Notes under the pieces: generated by a model
The model's input: only the letters and a program-made list of their open reading frames with translations
What the model was told of the DNA's origin: nothing
Databases searched by the model: none
NCBI GenBank assembly: GCA_958295945.1
Contig: OY282386.1
Coordinates: forward strand, 5,078,204-5,142,203
Direction of reading: 5' to 3'
Length of the DNA stretch: 64,000 bases
DNA from: Candidatus Poribacteria bacterium
GTDB taxonomy: Bacteria > Poribacteria > WGA-4E > WGA-3G
Made by a program: the position numbers and the translations under genes
Shown: in pieces, positions 39,917-48,265 of the stretch
How positions within the stretch are numbered: the first letter of the stretch is position 1
Layout of the letters: every line of letters begins with the position of its first letter

Positions 39917-41365
39917 ATGAAAAACATCGTTTTACTAATTACCGATACATTTCGTTATGACAATCTCGGTGAACGTGCGGAAAAGCCTATCCGCACACCG
40001 ATGCTTGATAACTTTGAAGCAGAACGTGCAACTGCTATTGACAAGTTCTATATGAGCAGCTTCCCCACGATCCCGCATCGCACGGATGTTGCGACTGGCA
40101 CACTCGGATGGCCTCACTATGGGTGGCAGGCGATCGATCTGAGTGGACCAAACCACATTGCTCAACTTCTTGCAGGACAGGGATATGCAACGCAACTGAT
40201 TTGCGATTGTCCACATCTATTTAATGCCCGTTTTCAGCATGGATTTCAGGCAGCTTTCCAACACCGTGGACAAGAAGGAGATAAACCGCTGCTACATCTC
40301 AATGATGTAATACAAACCATCATGCCAGATGACAAAACGCGACCGCAACCTGCCTTCCGTGGCAACACATTGCCAAATACTCACAGATGGACAAACCGAT
40401 ACTACCAATATGAAGCAGAGACTTTTTCTGGGAGAACATCACAATCAGCAATACGATTCTTAGAAGAAAACTATCGTTCCGGTCCCTTTTTCCTATGGGT
40501 AGATTTCTTCGATCCGCACGAACCATGGGATCCACCCGAGTATATCGTAAAACGATATGATGCAGATTATACCGGTCCGCCAATGTTACACCCGAATTAT
40601 GGACGTTCATCAATTTACACCGATGCGGAGCTGCATAATCTTTGGGCACACTATGCTGGTGAATCAGAACTGATTGATAGACATATCGGACAGATTATTC
40701 AAAAAGTTGATGACCTTGAACTATGGGATGATACCCTCGTTGTTGTAATGTCTGATCACGGTATGTCTATTGGTGAACATGAACGCACAGGGAAATCTAA
40801 CATTGATTCAGAAGACCCACGGTATTGGCCGACATATCCTGAGATTAACCATGAAATGTTTATGATTGCAGGTGGAGATGTGCCACAAGGTCAAAAACTT
40901 GATATGATTGCACAACCGATGGATATTTTACCTTCTTTGTGTGATCTTGCTGGTGTTACACTTGAGCCACGAAAACCATTTGATGGACGTTCTTTTGCTG
41001 AGGCACTTCTCACTGGGGATTCGCAGCATAGAGAGTATGCGGTAACAGGCACTCACATCGGTTCACGAAACGGCAATATGCCCCGTCGCGCGACTACACC
41101 ATTTCTTGTGACTGAACGTTGGGGATACGCACCAGTTGGCGAACTCGGTTTGCCTGAACTGTTTGATTTGACAGTTGACCCTATCGCAACGAACAATCTT
41201 GCGGAGGACAATGTTGCACTTGTTGCGGAACTGCATCAACTCTTTATGGCACATTTATTGGAACATAATGCACCGGAAAACTTCCTTGCCCTTTGGCAAG
41301 AACCCCCTACCGGAGATGGACGCGGAAAATGGGCGATTGACTATCCTGATGAAGAAAAGGAATAA
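39917..41365 (+). CDS. Sulfatase-fold (alkaline phosphatase superfamily) protein
   Basis: 482 residues with a strong site (aaaggagatat ATG). Metal ligands are in 'LITDTFRYDN' near the N-terminus and in 'MSDHGMSIGEHERTGK'. The usual C/S-x-P-S-R nucleophile region reads S48-F-P-T51 with R55 ('SSFPTIPHRTDV'), so there is no Cys to become formylglycine. It may use Ser or Thr, as do phosphatase or phosphotransferase members of the clan, or act as a type of unusual sulfatase. No maturase lies nearby. No signal peptide is evident, which is odd for an exported hydrolase. Confidence 0.85.
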   Translation: MKNIVLLITDTFRYDNLGERAEKPIRTPMLDNFEAERATAIDKFYMSSFPTIPHRTDVATGTLGWPHYGWQAIDLSGPNHIAQLLAGQGYATQLICDCPHLFNARFQHGFQAAFQHRGQEGDKPLLHLNDVIQTIMPDDKTRPQPAFRGNTLPNTHRWTNRYYQYEAETFSGRTSQSAIRFLEENYRSGPFFLWVDFFDPHEPWDPPEYIVKRYDADYTGPPMLHPNYGRSSIYTDAELHNLWAHYAGESELIDRHIGQIIQKVDDLELWDDTLVVVMSDHGMSIGEHERTGKSNIDSEDPRYWPTYPEINHEMFMIAGGDVPQGQKLDMIAQPMDILPSLCDLAGVTLEPRKPFDGRSFAEALLTGDSQHREYAVTGTHIGSRNGNMPRRATTPFLVTERWGYAPVGELGLPELFDLTVDPIATNNLAEDNVALVAELHQLFMAHLLEHNAPENFLALWQEPPTGDGRGKWAIDYPDEEKE

Positions 41366-42083: not shown

Positions 42084-42205
42084 GAGATAAGGTCTCAGAT
42101 GATAAAACTAATTTTCTTGAACAAAAATCTATAAAATGGTGATTTTGAGTTGAATAAAACCCATTCTTTTATAATCCTTGATACTTGAAAGAGATACGGA
42201 AACAC

Positions 42206-43516
42206 ATGGAAAATTCCAGTTCATTGAACGAAGAACTCAGTGAATTTGTCGGACAGACGGGTATACTATCTGATACTAAGAATTCATACTATTCTTATGA
42301 CGATTGTGTTCCGAAGGCAGTTGTTATCCCAGAATCTGTTCAAGAAGTGCAAGATGTACTTCGCTATGCATCAGAACACGGTTATACGGTAATACCTGCT
42401 GGGGCAGGTACAAAACTTGGTATCGGCAACTTATCAGAAAAATGTGGTATTGTTCTCACATTGACCCGTCTTAACAGCATCGTAGAATATGAACCTGCTG
42501 ATTTGACTGTGACTGTTGAAGCAGGTATCCGTTTAGCAGACCTACAAACTGAATTGGCAAAAAATAGGCAGTTTCTCGCAATGAACCCGCCGTATGCAGA
42601 TCGCTGCACTATCGGCGGGATCGTTGCAACGAATGCCAGTGGTCCGCTCCGACTTCGCTATGGCACTGCACGAAACCAAGTATTAGGTTTGCGTGTTGTA
42701 CATGCAAGCGGAACTGTGGTGAAAAGTGGTGGAAAAGTCGTAAAAAATGTCGCAGGATATGATCTAAACAAACTTTATATTGGTTCGTATGGAACACTTG
42801 GAATAATTACGGAGGTCACCTTAAAGTTGGCACCGTTACCAATACATCAGGCAATCATAGCATCTCAATTTCAGAATGTTCAGGATGCAGTCAAAACGGG
42901 ATTGAGTGTTGTAAGTTCCCAAACACTGCCAACATTCGTAAATCTATCAGTCAATCATCCACTTGAATTGTTCTCGGAACAAAAACCAACGCTAATAATA
43001 GGATTTGCCGGTGAACCTGAGACTGTCACTTGGCAGCTAAATACAGTTCAAACACAATTGGAACAAAATAGTGCTGACGGTGTGCAAATTGTTGAAGATG
43101 AATCGTATCATTCTATGTGTAGTGAAATTCAGGAATTTCCAAATGTTGTCAGCGAATTAGATCATGTTGTCGTTAAAGTTAATCTCAAACGGACAGATAT
43201 CGCAAATTATCTGGTAGAGAATCTTAATGGTTCAGAAGAAGTGATGGTATTATTGGGTAATGGTGTGATCTATTTCAATATAGCGATAACCTCTGGTAGT
43301 GATCTTCAACAGATAGTACATACACTATCACAAATGCGTCAACGTGCAATAGATGTGGGAGGAAATCTTATTATTGAATCTGCACCGCCTGAAGTAAAAC
43401 GACAGATTGATGTTTGGGGGTCGATTGGGGCCACGCAAAACTTAATGAAACAAATCAAAGCAAAATTTGATGAAGCTGCATTGCTCAATCCCGGTCGTTT
43501 CGTTTCAAGCATATAA
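42206..43516 (+). CDS. FAD-binding oxidase, GlcE-like
   Basis: 436 residues from the ATG at 42206 (a TTG at 42185 is in frame). The PCMH FAD domain carries 'VIPAGAGTKLGIGN' and 'TVTVEAGIRLADLQ', then 'PYADRCTIGGIVATNASGPLRLRYGTAR'. The C-terminal domain ends 'EAALLNPGRFVSSI'. Length and layout match the GlcE subunit of glycolate oxidase more than GlcD, but no GlcD/GlcF genes are adjacent; the fusion at 8641 could be a partner. The substrate is a 2-hydroxy acid by inference. Confidence 0.85.
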   Translation: MENSSSLNEELSEFVGQTGILSDTKNSYYSYDDCVPKAVVIPESVQEVQDVLRYASEHGYTVIPAGAGTKLGIGNLSEKCGIVLTLTRLNSIVEYEPADLTVTVEAGIRLADLQTELAKNRQFLAMNPPYADRCTIGGIVATNASGPLRLRYGTARNQVLGLRVVHASGTVVKSGGKVVKNVAGYDLNKLYIGSYGTLGIITEVTLKLAPLPIHQAIIASQFQNVQDAVKTGLSVVSSQTLPTFVNLSVNHPLELFSEQKPTLIIGFAGEPETVTWQLNTVQTQLEQNSADGVQIVEDESYHSMCSEIQEFPNVVSELDHVVVKVNLKRTDIANYLVENLNGSEEVMVLLGNGVIYFNIAITSGSDLQQIVHTLSQMRQRAIDVGGNLIIESAPPEVKRQIDVWGSIGATQNLMKQIKAKFDEAALLNPGRFVSSI

Positions 43517-43612
43517 TCTGTTTGCCACATATCTCTCTTTCCCGAGCAACATTTTTACTTATTTGGCAGTTCTTGAAAAACATATATCATTCTATATTAT
43601 AGGGGTGACAAC

Positions 43613-45226
43613 ATGGATAAAACAAAACGGAGGATCTTGTGGATTGATGATGTTGATGAATTACTTCATACAGTTCCAAATTTGAAATCTGAGTTGAAGC
43701 CCTATATTCGCTTCATGGAGTTTCAAGGATACGATGTATCCTATGCTGATAGCGATATTGATGGGATTGATTTACTCAAGGATAAGACATTTCACGCGGT
43801 TATACTTAATTGTGAAGGGCAAAACAGTGAATTCTTACCGATAGTTCGGGCAGCAGATGCACATATACCTATTATTCTTCTGACAGAGACTGGTGGACAG
43901 GAGATAATGGCGCAAGCAAGTATGCATGGCATTGACGATGTGTTGATTATGCCTACAAGTCCAATGCAACTTGTTTCATCACTTAGACTTTTGCTTGAGA
44001 AGGAGAGAATGCGGGAGGCATATACCCCTCAAATTTATGTAAAGAACTACAATAGGCAACACACATTAGACAGCCACCAGACGTATACGCCATCTGATCC
44101 AAATCTGAATGACGACTGGCAAGGGTGGATAGATACATATATCCAATTTGTAGAATGGGATATTTTGTTTGATGGTCTTTCAAACGTGGATGAACTAAAA
44201 ACAATTCATGCACGTGAGAGACGGGAAGCCAACGCAAACTTTACAGAATATGTCCAAAAAAATTATAATTTATGGCTTGAGAGTGAAAACTCTCCTACTT
44301 TGTCTGTAGATGTCTTTTACAAATATGTTATTCCTGAGATCCAAATTGGTAAGTCTGTGCTTTTTGTCGTGATGGACTGTATGCGGTTAGACCATTGGTT
44401 GAAAATTGAGCCAATTCTCTATCCTGATTTCTACATGAAAAAGCATTATTACTATTCAATTTTACCCACAACAACACACTATTGCAGAAATGCCATATTT
44501 AGTGGACTATTCCCAAGAGATTTGTCTGATAGATATCCGGAATTATACGCTGAACCCGGTAATGAACACACAAGTATCAACCGTTTTGAAAAAGAGTTGA
44601 TGCTTTTACAACTGGATCGACATGGTATAGTGTTGAAACCATCACCACACTATTTCAAAATATTTGATACCCGCGGGGAAACACAATACTTGCAATGGTT
44701 ACACGAGACAAATCGGATTAGTTTGGCCGCAATGGTTGTGGGTTTTCTGGACAAGTTTACACACTTACGAAGTGAGGTAGAACTATTTCAACAACTTGTC
44801 CCAAATGAAGAGTCGTTTCGATCTTTTGTACAGACTTGGTTTCAAAATTCACCTATACATAATATTTTTAGACTTGCAGCTGAACGCGGTATGACAATAA
44901 TAATAACATCAGACCACGGTTCTATCTTATGTCAGAACCCCGCAAAAATATCAAGTCGTCATGAACTTACAAGCGGTCTACGACTTAAAGAGGGGAAGGA
45001 TATCATTTACAGTCCTGATTCGGGTTTTCTAATTGATGAACCAGAAAAATACAGATTACCTGACAACGGCTCGGAAAAGAACTACATCCTTGCGTTAGAA
45101 GATAATTATTTAGTCTACGAAAACCAGTTTAATACATATAAAGAGATATTTCAAGGGAGTTTCCAGCACGGTGGCATATCTCTTGAAGAGATTATCCTGC
45201 CTGTTGTTGTCCTTGAACCAAGATAA
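43613..45226 (+). CDS. PorX-like protein: degenerate receiver plus PglZ domain
   Basis: 537 residues. Residues ~7-125 are a response-regulator receiver with 'ILWIDDVDELL', but the phosphoacceptor Asp is N66 ('AVILNCEG') and the conserved Lys is M113 ('LIMPTSPMQL'). Residues ~230-535 are the PglZ alkaline-phosphatase-like domain with 'VVMDCMRLDHW', the nucleophile Thr group T286-T288 ('LPTTTHYCRNAIFSG'), 'TSDHGS' and 'FQHGGISLEEIILP'. The whole layout matches PorX, the type 9 secretion regulator of Bacteroidota. The receiver cannot be phosphorylated normally. Target of the phosphatase domain is open; no PorY or T9SS gene is in the window. The site gggtga precedes the start. Confidence 0.9.
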   Translation: MDKTKRRILWIDDVDELLHTVPNLKSELKPYIRFMEFQGYDVSYADSDIDGIDLLKDKTFHAVILNCEGQNSEFLPIVRAADAHIPIILLTETGGQEIMAQASMHGIDDVLIMPTSPMQLVSSLRLLLEKERMREAYTPQIYVKNYNRQHTLDSHQTYTPSDPNLNDDWQGWIDTYIQFVEWDILFDGLSNVDELKTIHARERREANANFTEYVQKNYNLWLESENSPTLSVDVFYKYVIPEIQIGKSVLFVVMDCMRLDHWLKIEPILYPDFYMKKHYYYSILPTTTHYCRNAIFSGLFPRDLSDRYPELYAEPGNEHTSINRFEKELMLLQLDRHGIVLKPSPHYFKIFDTRGETQYLQWLHETNRISLAAMVVGFLDKFTHLRSEVELFQQLVPNEESFRSFVQTWFQNSPIHNIFRLAAERGMTIIITSDHGSILCQNPAKISSRHELTSGLRLKEGKDIIYSPDSGFLIDEPEKYRLPDNGSEKNYILALEDNYLVYENQFNTYKEIFQGSFQHGGISLEEIILPVVVLEPR

Positions 45227-45292: not shown

Positions 45293-47167
45293 ATGACTAA
45301 AATCACTCGACTCAATATACTGTTTCTATTGATTCTGTCAACCTGTTTCACAACAATTTTTCCATTTTCTGCAAATGCTCAGTTTCCTGAATTAGATTTG
45401 TCTGGTGATCTACCCTTTGAAAAACTCACCGCCGAAACCTATATTTCTTATGATAAAGTTCAACCTGGCAATGAATTCCATATTGCAGTTGTCGTGACAA
45501 TAGCGGATGGTTGGCATGTTAACGCGAATCCTACCCGCGCCCCTCTTATGCCAACAAAGATTACAGCACCTGATTTGCCGAATATAACCTTCGGAGATGT
45601 TGTATATCCGGCAGGTGACACGCTCAATATCGCCTCAATCGGTTTAGCTTCAGTATATCACGATACTGTATCCTTCGGTATTCCCGCAATTTTACTGCCA
45701 AGTGCCCCTGTTGAACCTATTGCTGTGGATTTAGAACTTCATTATCAGGCATGTAATGATGAACAGTGTTTGTTGCCTGAAACCTTGAATGTTTCTATAC
45801 CTATAGATGTTGCCAGTACAGAAGAGACTGTCATGTCAGTTAATGACACGATTTTTGCAAGTATTGCATTTGATGGACAACAGAACGATAGTAGCGAAAA
45901 TCAAGGCGGACTTGCCCGGGCACTATTAGGTGGGAACCTATTGCTTGCATTCATATTTGTATTCGGCGCAGGAATTGTAACTAGCTTAACACCTTGTGTC
46001 TATCCTTTGATACCGATAACGGTTTCAATCTTTGGTGCGAATGAGTCAACTGGGATCCTAAAGTCGTTTTTACTTTCTTTTGTATATGTAGTAGGTATTG
46101 TCATTACATATTCTATATTAGGTGTTGCTGTGGCATCAACAGATGCGGTTTTTGGACAGATTATGGCGGATCCGAGAGTAATTATTCCTATTTGCCTGAT
46201 TCTTGTTGCACTAGGGTTGTCAATGCTCGGCATTTATGAAATTAGACTGCCTTCTACAATGCAAAACAGGTTAAATACTGTTGGCGGTGCTGGATTCATC
46301 GGAGCATTCACGATGGGGACTGTCGCTGGAATCATCGCCGCACCATGCACAGGTCCTGCCCTTGCCGCTGTTCTTAGCTACATTGCTAATATAAATGAAG
46401 ATGATCAAACGCGTAAAATCATATTAGGGTTTTCGCTCATGGCGACCTATGCATTCGGTATGGGATTATTATTCATTTGTCTCGGCACCTTTTCCGGTTT
46501 GATTTCCTCCTTACCTAAATCTGGCGGATGGATGTACATCTTGGAAAATATCTTTGGGATTGCGATTATTACAATGGCACTATACTTTCTTAAAGATTTA
46601 GAGGTATTTACATCAGTGGAAGGTTTTTTACAGAAGACATTTCCGTATTTAGTTGTCATCGGTGGATTATGGCTCAGTGACTTAACACAACGTTTTAGAG
46701 GACTCCCACGTTTGATGCAGCTTCGAAAAGCATGTGGTGTTTTAGTAGCAGTCCTTGGTGCTTTTTTGATTATTCTAGGACCACAACAACCTGCTGCCGG
46801 TCCGCATTTGATCTGGGATTACGACAATGAACCAGTTGCACTGGAAGCAGCAAAACAGCAAGAAAAACTGGTGATACTTGACTTTTATGCGTCGTGGTGT
46901 GCTGCTTGTAATGAATTAGACCATAAGACATTTTCAGATCAAGAGGTCATAAATAGGTTAGCTAATTATGTTACTGTAAAACTTGACTTCAGTACAAAAT
47001 CTGATGAGGTATTGACAGAAAAATATAAGATTGTTGGTTTGCCGGTTGTCATATTTATGGATGGAGAAGGCAATATCTATGAACGAATAGAAGGGTTTGT
47101 TGAGCCGGAGGAAATGCTCAAAATAATTGACAAAGTTGAATCAAAAGCCAAAGATAACAAATTGTAG
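45293..47167 (+). CDS. dsbD: Thiol:disulfide interchange protein DsbD
   Basis: 624 residues. A signal peptide ends near 'SANAQ'. The N-terminal periplasmic domain contains 'YQACNDEQCLLPE' (redox Cys pair), then eight membrane helices with C235 ('SLTPCVYPLIP') and C352 ('AAPCTGPALAAV'), then a thioredoxin domain with C536-x2-C539 ('YASWCAACNELD'). It carries electrons from cytoplasmic thioredoxin to the periplasm. It starts after a 'taggagaattaat' site and is followed 9 bp later by a TPR gene, likely one operon. Confidence 0.95.
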   Translation: MTKITRLNILFLLILSTCFTTIFPFSANAQFPELDLSGDLPFEKLTAETYISYDKVQPGNEFHIAVVVTIADGWHVNANPTRAPLMPTKITAPDLPNITFGDVVYPAGDTLNIASIGLASVYHDTVSFGIPAILLPSAPVEPIAVDLELHYQACNDEQCLLPETLNVSIPIDVASTEETVMSVNDTIFASIAFDGQQNDSSENQGGLARALLGGNLLLAFIFVFGAGIVTSLTPCVYPLIPITVSIFGANESTGILKSFLLSFVYVVGIVITYSILGVAVASTDAVFGQIMADPRVIIPICLILVALGLSMLGIYEIRLPSTMQNRLNTVGGAGFIGAFTMGTVAGIIAAPCTGPALAAVLSYIANINEDDQTRKIILGFSLMATYAFGMGLLFICLGTFSGLISSLPKSGGWMYILENIFGIAIITMALYFLKDLEVFTSVEGFLQKTFPYLVVIGGLWLSDLTQRFRGLPRLMQLRKACGVLVAVLGAFLIILGPQQPAAGPHLIWDYDNEPVALEAAKQQEKLVILDFYASWCAACNELDHKTFSDQEVINRLANYVTVKLDFSTKSDEVLTEKYKIVGLPVVIFMDGEGNIYERIEGFVEPEEMLKIIDKVESKAKDNKL

Positions 47168-47176
47168 GTAATTCAC

Positions 47177-48265
47177 ATGGAATCAAACAAACAGTCAGAA
47201 AACAGATCGTACTTTTCTTTTCACCGTTGGTTAGTGTATTTAGAAATAATTGCAGTCATCGGTTTTTTAGTGGTTGCTGTATTATACACGCAACGCGGTG
47301 GTGCCGAACCAGATACGCCATCATTGTCGCAAGCGGGAAAGTTCCTTGCTGAAGCTGATGCACACTATGACAAACAGGACTTGGCTACAGCAATATTCCT
47401 CTATTGGCAGGCGTTACAAGCGTTAGAAACTGACAGAACTGAAGAGAATAAAGCAGATCGTTTACATGCAAACCTACGAATCGCAGAGATATATTCTCAG
47501 AGTAATTGGTTCAAAGATGCGAAATCACGACTTGCTCATGCAGCACAGATCCAGCCTGATCATAAGGATGTTCTGCTTTTAGGTGGAAAATTTTTGCGAG
47601 ATGAAAGTCTACCTGAAGAAGCAACTGAAAAGTTCTTGGCTGTCTTGGATAAACATCCAGATGATGCAGAAGCACACTATCTACTCGGTGTCTTATATCA
47701 AGGAAGCAAGCAGTATGAAAATGCATCAAAACACTATCGTGCCGCAATTGATAACGACCCGGAACTTACATATATTCCTTCTGAAAAAGCACCAATCGGT
47801 ATACTTGCACGCTTGCAATTGTCACGCACCTATAATAAGATGTTTCTTGGTTATAGATTTCTTGACAGAGAACTTACCGACGAAGATATGAAAGAGATTT
47901 CTCGACTTGAATCTCAAGCGATTATTCTGTTAGAGGAAGCCATCCAACTGAACCATGGGACACCTGAGATTATAGACGATCTTATTCGTTTACTGTACGT
48001 GAGGGCAAACGCACTCAAACGCGAAGCTGCGACACGACCTTATGCTGATGCCCTTGAAGTATATGAAAGAATTGTGGAACTTGATCCCACGGAAATTCAA
48101 GCATGGCAGGAGATGGGAGATATCCATTACGGTTTTCTTGTTGATAAAGAAAAGGCACTTGAGATGTACCGTAAGGTATATGAACTTGAATCACACGCAA
48201 CGACTTTAGCCGTAATCAAATCGCTTGAAGCAGAAATTGCTGATGGTATAGAAGAAGTAGAATGA
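47177..48265 (+). CDS. Membrane-anchored TPR protein
   Basis: 362 residues. Residues ~18-38 form one transmembrane segment ('LVYLEIIAVIGFLVVAVLY'). From ~50 onward several TPR units are visible ('DLATAIFLYWQALQAL', 'LPEEATEKFLAVLDKHPDDAEAHYLLGVLYQGSKQYENASKHY', 'ADALEVYERIVELDPTEIQAWQEMGDIHYG'). It is expected to sit on the periplasmic side and bind partner proteins. It is coupled to dsbD, so a role in envelope protein assembly is a reasonable inference. Confidence 0.8.
   Translation: MESNKQSENRSYFSFHRWLVYLEIIAVIGFLVVAVLYTQRGGAEPDTPSLSQAGKFLAEADAHYDKQDLATAIFLYWQALQALETDRTEENKADRLHANLRIAEIYSQSNWFKDAKSRLAHAAQIQPDHKDVLLLGGKFLRDESLPEEATEKFLAVLDKHPDDAEAHYLLGVLYQGSKQYENASKHYRAAIDNDPELTYIPSEKAPIGILARLQLSRTYNKMFLGYRFLDRELTDEDMKEISRLESQAIILLEEAIQLNHGTPEIIDDLIRLLYVRANALKREAATRPYADALEVYERIVELDPTEIQAWQEMGDIHYGFLVDKEKALEMYRKVYELESHATTLAVIKSLEAEIADGIEEVE

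Follow-up and report, generated by a model that had tools for sequence, protein, structure and literature searches.

A PorX paralogue of Candidatus Poribacteria that combines a pseudo-receiver with an intact zinc site throughout its lineage

The window analysed here is a stretch of 64,000 nucleotides (positions 5,078,204-5,142,203) from the single-contig, 5.34 Mb genome of a sponge-type bacterium, Candidatus Poribacteria. On its forward strand lies a gene for a 537-residue protein of the PorX family, in which a receiver, a helical bundle and a PglZ phosphodiesterase domain follow one another in that order (Table 1). The genome carries two PorX copies that are 41% identical; we refer to the window copy as PorX2 and to the canonical copy elsewhere in the same genome as PorX1. 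The latter is found at 4,064,137-4,065,690, 1.06 Mb from PorX2, and has the DDE, Asp, Thr, Phe and Lys of its receiver all present.

Table 1. Position and basis of assignment of PorX2, its domains, key residues and conserved neighbours (positions are those of the window).
Feature	Position	Strand	Basis
GlcE-like FAD-binding oxidoreductase, conserved upstream neighbour of PorX2	42185..43516	+	Pfam, neighbour clusters
Shine-Dalgarno-like AGGGGTGA, 4 bases 5' of ATG	43601..43608	+	recognised by eye
PorX2 open reading frame, 537 aa	43613..45226	+	family model, Pfam, phmmer, AlphaFold2 model
Pseudo-receiver domain, residues 1-130	43613..44002	+	Response_reg below cut-off; receiver helix/strand order in model
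D12-D13-V14, acidic pocket remnant (DDE in PorX1)	43646..43654	+	alignment
Insertion of ~11 residues after acidic pair, limits approximate	43661..43696	+	alignment, model
N66, codon AAT, phosphoacceptor position (D54 in F. johnsoniae PorX; D58 in P. gingivalis PorX)	43808..43810	+	alignment
M113, codon ATG, switch lysine position (K104 in F. johnsoniae PorX)	43949..43951	+	alignment
Three-helix bundle, residues 131-245, limits approximate	44003..44347	+	PorX alignment, model
PglZ / alkaline-phosphatase-superfamily domain, residues 246-537	44348..45223	+	Pfam PglZ, model
D255, zinc ligand (D237)	44375..44377	+	55/55 family copies; 22/22 PorX1
T288, catalytic nucleophile (T271)	44474..44476	+	55/55 family copies; 22/22 PorX1
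G377, auxiliary-pocket Asn position (N357)	44741..44743	+	D or G in PorX2, N in PorX1
D380 and H384, zinc ligands (D360, H364)	44750..44764	+	55/55 family copies; 22/22 PorX1
D434-H435, zinc ligands (D414, H415)	44912..44917	+	55/55 family copies; 22/22 PorX1
H519, zinc ligand (H499)	45167..45169	+	55/55 family copies; 22/22 PorX1
DsbD-like thiol:disulfide interchange protein, conserved downstream neighbour	45293..47167	+	Pfam, neighbour clusters
TPR protein, conserved downstream neighbour	47177..48265	+	Pfam, neighbour clusters
Residue numbers in brackets at positions 255 to 519 are those of F. johnsoniae PorX.

PorX2 matches the curated NCBIfam equivalog T9SS_RR_PorX (NF052313) with 436 bits (cut-off 300), and has the receiver, three-helix bundle and PglZ domain that together make up the PorX architecture. 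A phmmer search of the PDB returned five sequences, at E-values from 8e-82 (7pv7) to 2e-80, all of them response regulators of PorX entries. Pfam recognises the PglZ domain (1.8e-11); its Response_reg model reaches 21 bits (E 3.5e-4), below the cut-off of 30, where PorX1 of the same genome scores 74 bits. The fold of the receiver is nonetheless recognised in an AlphaFold2 model (mean pLDDT 85, built from 52 sequences comprising the window protein and its relatives), which receiver structures match at Z 16-18 over residues 5-135. Solved PorX structures match the model over its full length with Z 48-52 (7pvk_A, Z 52) at an rmsd of 8-9 Å over ~500 residues; so high an rmsd suggests that the placement of the domains relative to one another differs from that in the PorX structures. 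A search of genome contigs yielded one true relative, in a Candidatus Poribacteria MAG (80% identity). A second match, in Piscicoccus, was disregarded as weak and limited to 37 residues.

With the residue numbering of F. johnsoniae PorX (PMC11320123 and PMC10951265), D10-D11-E12 of the acidic pocket align with D12-D13-V14 of PorX2, the acceptor D54 with N66, T82 with T91, the switch aromatic Y101 with V110 and K104 with M113; the receiver has thus lost its acceptor, lysine and switch aromatic together with one acidic residue, while the switch threonine is retained. Lacking the Asp acceptor, the Lys and the full acidic pocket of a phosphorylatable receiver, PorX2 is classed here as a paralogue within the PorX family rather than with the phospho-regulated PorX proteins, and the loss of phosphotransfer residues places its N-terminal domain among the pseudo-receivers (PsR, also aspartate-less receivers, ALR). 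A preliminary description of this DNA had put N66 at the phosphoacceptor and M113 at the switch lysine, and alignment with solved PorX proteins bears this out, with no other Asp filling the acceptor position. Sequencing error at N66 is excluded by the orthologues, since a copy from another genome with 80% identity (L050) also has N and M there. The same description reasoned that the input must differ from that of PorX or the enzyme be constitutively active, and indeed a receiver without the usual aspartyl-phosphate capacity must have an input that is different or absent. The insertion that follows the acidic pair is longer in other members of the window's family (~24 residues), and in the window protein the model falls below pLDDT 50 at residues 16-24.

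Some match to PorX occurs in 90 of the 97 genomes searched, a set made up of the window's own genome and relatives from genus level out to other phyla. Full-length PorX2 is present in 54 of the 57 genomes of the window's family, at 55 places, and in 10 of the 14 remaining order-level genomes; PorX1 accompanies nearly every PorX2 among these family genomes. No full-length PorX2 was found in three genomes of the family (G010, which is 73% complete, G039 and G040) or in four at order level. Partial or weak matches (G039, a fragment, and G076, G079, G080, G088, G090, G093 and G094) stand outside the alignment, and L001-L004 were removed before counting as duplicates of the window, L071, L050 and L051. 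One family genome, G052, has two PorX2 copies on different contigs (G052:C175 and G052:C42; L122 and L135), which may reflect duplication or contamination (6% listed).

Among the 55 family copies the acceptor position never holds Asp (N in 47, S in 7, C in 1) and the switch position never Lys (M in 36), so that both replacements are general in the window's family and no product of chance. The acidic pair, which the preliminary description regarded as kept, is present in the window protein but lost in most of the lineage, with Asp at position 13 in 3 of the 55. At order level the decay is less advanced: three of ten copies retain the acceptor Asp (N in 6, S in 1) and all ten the Lys, and in the three that retain the acceptor the Asp at position 13 is gone. 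By these counts each PorX2 among the 45 is missing one or more of the five conserved receiver residues, and decay is partial in the sister families of the window's family. The receivers of PorX1 are intact in 22/22 and in 27/27 proteins, two sets that overlap by seven and so comprise 42 distinct proteins. A class-level PorX2 (L044; G073:C30; L044:4559-6118) has a fully intact receiver and is interrupted by one in-frame TGA. This TGA may reflect either loss of the gene or a fault in the assembly.

In a tree computed on bundle and PglZ columns, with the receiver columns excluded, 46 PorX2 rows form a single clade with support of 100/100; the tree was rooted with four PorX of other phyla, and its long branches are chiefly those of the outgroup rows. 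Being interrupted, L044 is represented there by its first piece only and is outside the 45 PorX2 rows used for counting. The most parsimonious history has two losses of the acceptor Asp; confining it to a single loss is worse by 6.1 log units, a difference too small for rejection (p-AU 0.18).

In the catalytic domain, each of the 55 family copies has all seven residues of the zinc site, the catalytic Thr among them (the list is taken from PMC11320123), in agreement with the earlier statement that the PglZ part retains its Thr and metal motifs. In F. johnsoniae PorX an auxiliary cleft formed by R275, K329 and N357 binds a second phosphate-like ion, as described in PMC11320123. The R and the K are invariant across 22 PorX1 and 45 PorX2 rows. 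The third position is N in all 22 PorX1 proteins in which it was counted (20 PorX1 fetched later are outside this count), D (36) or G (9) in all 45 PorX2 rows, and D or G in 55/55 family copies. The second piece of L044, a protein whose receiver is intact, likewise has D here, and the change from N to D or G therefore probably predates the decay of the receiver. Such a change in the pocket hints at a possibly altered substrate in PorX2. The PglZ dimer-interface serines, S384 and S388 in F. johnsoniae PorX and required for its activity, have drifted as well: at the corresponding positions 404 and 408, Ser is found in 2/45 and 1/45 PorX2 and in 19/22 and 18/22 PorX1. Given this drift, neither PorX-like dimers nor enzyme activity are assured for PorX2.

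Rates of change differ between the two domains. Across 27 genomes that have PorX1 as well as PorX2, receiver distance divided by PglZ distance has a median of 2.05 for PorX2 and 1.05 for PorX1, and is higher in PorX2 for 338 of 343 pairs, which are non-independent; pairs with PglZ identity of 97% or more, or with identical receivers, were dropped. For 19 pairs of closely related PorX2, dN/dS falls in the range 0.02-0.11 in PglZ and 0.05-0.41 in the receiver. The PorX2 receiver is thus under relaxed but non-neutral selection, and the zinc site of PglZ under strong purifying selection. Computed per structural element over 22 family genomes, entropy in PorX2 is highest in the phosphorylation-site loops (means of 1.67, 2.05 and 2.23 bits, compared with 0.09, 0.24 and 0.13 in PorX1), and helix 1, an element of 9 columns, is the sole part of the receiver that is more conserved in PorX2 (0.55) than in PorX1 (0.85). 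This pattern would fit a fold retained for structure or binding.

The two copies also keep different company. A histidine kinase of one family is encoded directly upstream at 19 of 22 PorX1 loci, including that of the window genome, and at none of 19 PorX2 loci; in many PorX1 loci RNase G/E follows downstream. PorX2 sits apart from this kinase-linked locus in an operon of the form GlcD-GlcE-(NUDIX)-PorX2-DsbD-TPR, with the GlcD-GlcE pair preceding it in most loci and the DsbD and TPR clusters 3' of it in 17/19 and 16/19.

The preliminary description considered the organism as not obviously carrying a type IX secretion system (T9SS) in this window, a view that the whole genome overturns, as it encodes sorting domains, PorV, PorU-like proteins, a SprA relative and a canonical PorX with its kinase. 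The sorting domain model TIGR04183 has 47 matches above cut-off, and all eight of those inspected sit at the C-terminus of their reading frame; a 500-residue stretch upstream of one sorting domain had no Pfam match. The PorV family has seven matches above cut-off and 16 in total. Three PorU-like C25 proteins of 1753-2161 residues carry sorting domains themselves and score below cut-off for the sortase model NF033707 (285 of 420 bits). A 2140-residue SprA/Sov relative (G000:C1:1010676-1017098; L084:677-7099, + strand) matches TIGR04189 in five stretches (1.8e-43), also below cut-off at 148 of 200 bits. SprA_N matches occur in 82 of the 97 genomes, above cut-off in 35. Since this reading frame had no phmmer match among PDB chains and nothing useful in Pfam, its identity as SprA is taken from TIGR04189 together with the weak SprA_N match. 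GldL and GldM were not found in the genome; the GldL model likewise gave nothing above cut-off in genomes where SprA and PorU are strong, so that no absence is claimed. Taken together, the SprA relative, PorV, the PorU-like proteins and the proteins with sorting domains point to a divergent T9SS in Poribacteria, in the same genome as PorX, with SprA and PorU-like members below cut-off. A 2014 paper on Poribacteria reported T9SS sorting domains and did not find the structural genes of the system, by its own account (PMC3909097), and the SprA, PorV, PorU-like and PorX relatives bear on the question that it left. The PorU-like loci number three rather than one sortase (G000:C1:1641740-1647286, 3203091-3207449 and 4090210-4095306).

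We propose, with a probability of roughly 0.55, that PorX2 is a kinase-uncoupled duplicate, probably a zinc phosphodiesterase that works without phosphorylation on an altered substrate. An old duplication of PorX in Poribacteria would have left PorX2 apart from the kinase-linked locus; the pocket residue would have changed first, from N to D or G, with aspartyl phosphorylation lost stepwise thereafter and the zinc phosphodiesterase site retained under strong purifying selection. The resulting enzyme may act on a nucleotide-type substrate other than that of PorX1, and its output may be set by expression, by zinc or by a partner on the remaining receiver fold, and not by a histidine kinase. We infer activity, substrate and partner; the sequences themselves show a duplicated gene, a receiver that has lost acceptor and lysine, an intact zinc site, and the patterns of selection and gene neighbourhood. 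That phosphorylation of the receiver controls the PglZ part, as the preliminary description assumed, holds only in part even for PorX: the F. johnsoniae protein is described as having comparable phosphodiesterase activity with or without phosphorylation (PMC10951265), as remaining active after D54A substitution or removal of the receiver, and as dimerising with zinc alone when D54A, zinc-induced dimerisation being independent of D54 (PMC11320123). The relation between phosphorylation, zinc and phosphodiesterase is itself unsettled in the PorX papers. It is tempting to speculate, though with considerable doubt, that one T9SS is served by two PorX branches, of which PorX1 is controlled by a kinase and PorX2, with a scaffold receiver and N357 changed to D or G, does without one and would degrade a second oligonucleotide signal. 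If so, PorX signalling could proceed without phosphorylation, and the intermediates would show the order of change, with the pocket first, then the acceptor, and the lysine and loops last.

The chief rival, which we consider unlikely, is that PorX2 forms intertwined mixed dimers with PorX1 and thereby tunes or blocks its phosphorylation-driven output, the receiver serving as a dimerisation surface. The nearly constant pairing of the two copies in the 54 of 57 family genomes would fit such a role, PorX is described as dimerising through both receiver and PglZ interfaces (PMC11320123), and the constraint on the receiver, with helix 1 more conserved than that of PorX1 while the phosphorylation loops drift, is compatible with it. 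However, PorX2 has a pocket change of its own and diverged interface residues, and shares only ~40% identity with PorX1; contact between the two is purely putative. Still less probable is that PorX2 is a locked docking protein of the T9SS motor whose receiver binds PorL/GldL without phosphorylation. Although the isolated receiver of F. johnsoniae PorX binds GldL and T9SS parts are encoded in this genome, D54A abolishes that binding (both according to PMC10951265), and N, S or C at the acceptor is not phosphomimetic; nor were GldL and GldM found, a result tempered by the failure of the GldL model in genomes with a clear T9SS. Decay toward a pseudogene is very improbable and we reject it: the active site of the receiver is lost, the G073 copy has an in-frame TGA and three family and four order-level genomes show no full-length PorX2, but the gene is open and full-length in 54/57 family genomes with conserved gene order, and dN/dS (0.02-0.11 for PglZ, <0.5 for the receiver) and seven invariant zinc-site residues speak for retention. 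The weakest candidate, a PglZ that serves phage defence as in BREX and not secretion signalling, retains next to no plausibility, for although the model matches BREX PglZ (BrxZ; 9zn5_B, Z 24, rmsd 3.9, 331 residues) and NCBIfam BREX_PglZ_3 scores 82 bits, this compares with a cut-off of 250 (and 30 bits with one of 200) where the PorX equivalog reaches 436 of 300, PorX1 produces an equivalent BREX match (91 bits), and neither the Pfam-scanned window neighbours nor the named neighbour clusters include a recognised BREX gene.

The likeness to BrxZ concerns the PglZ catalytic fold and leaves out the receiver (model range 140-537). With PorX of P. gingivalis and F. johnsoniae, PorX2 shares the order of domains, ~30% identity over the full length, the whole-length fold and all zinc and nucleophile residues; unlike them it has no acceptor Asp, Lys or switch aromatic, an altered acidic pocket with an insertion behind it and a replacement at N357, and it stands without an adjoining kinase gene in a genome that encodes a canonical second PorX. 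PorX2 resembles pseudo-receiver (ALR) regulators in that the receiver fold stays and the phosphotransfer residues are gone, and RitR, with Asn53, likewise has Asn at the acceptor position (PMC4395418). Unlike these regulators, PorX2 has a PglZ phosphodiesterase as its output, and partly decayed forms of it persist in its sister families. The main text of two pseudo-receiver reviews does not contain the term PglZ, and one review calls it a mystery how bacterial pseudo-receivers are activated (PMC12632262). A literature search, run mostly without subscription papers, found none that describes a PorX whose receiver is degenerate, and a search for Poribacteria and type IX secretion returned nothing on this topic by title and abstract. 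Across its lineage, PorX2 is a PorX paralogue that bears a pseudo-receiver, and within its clade the passage from receiver to pseudo-receiver can be followed in grades while the output domain stays the same. Given a natural PorX that has lost the phosphorylation part only, matched intact paralogues from those genomes and relatives in mid-decay, phosphorylation, zinc and phosphodiesterase activity can be separated directly.

The genes around PorX2 name no pathway. At all ten order-level loci (L034-L043) a NUDIX hydrolase gene lies directly upstream of PorX2, at most 16 bases away or overlapping; the eight family loci examined have no such gene there, GlcE being the immediate neighbour of PorX2. 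No close relative of this NUDIX gene was found anywhere in the eight family genomes searched; close relatives are present in G058 and G059, where PorX2 was not found. The NUDIX hydrolase as an obligate partner of PorX2 was rejected on both counts. Three genes upstream of PorX2, at 39917-41365 on the + strand, the window also encodes a sulfatase-family protein, which adjoins genes of the UbiA family and for a right-handed beta-helix protein.
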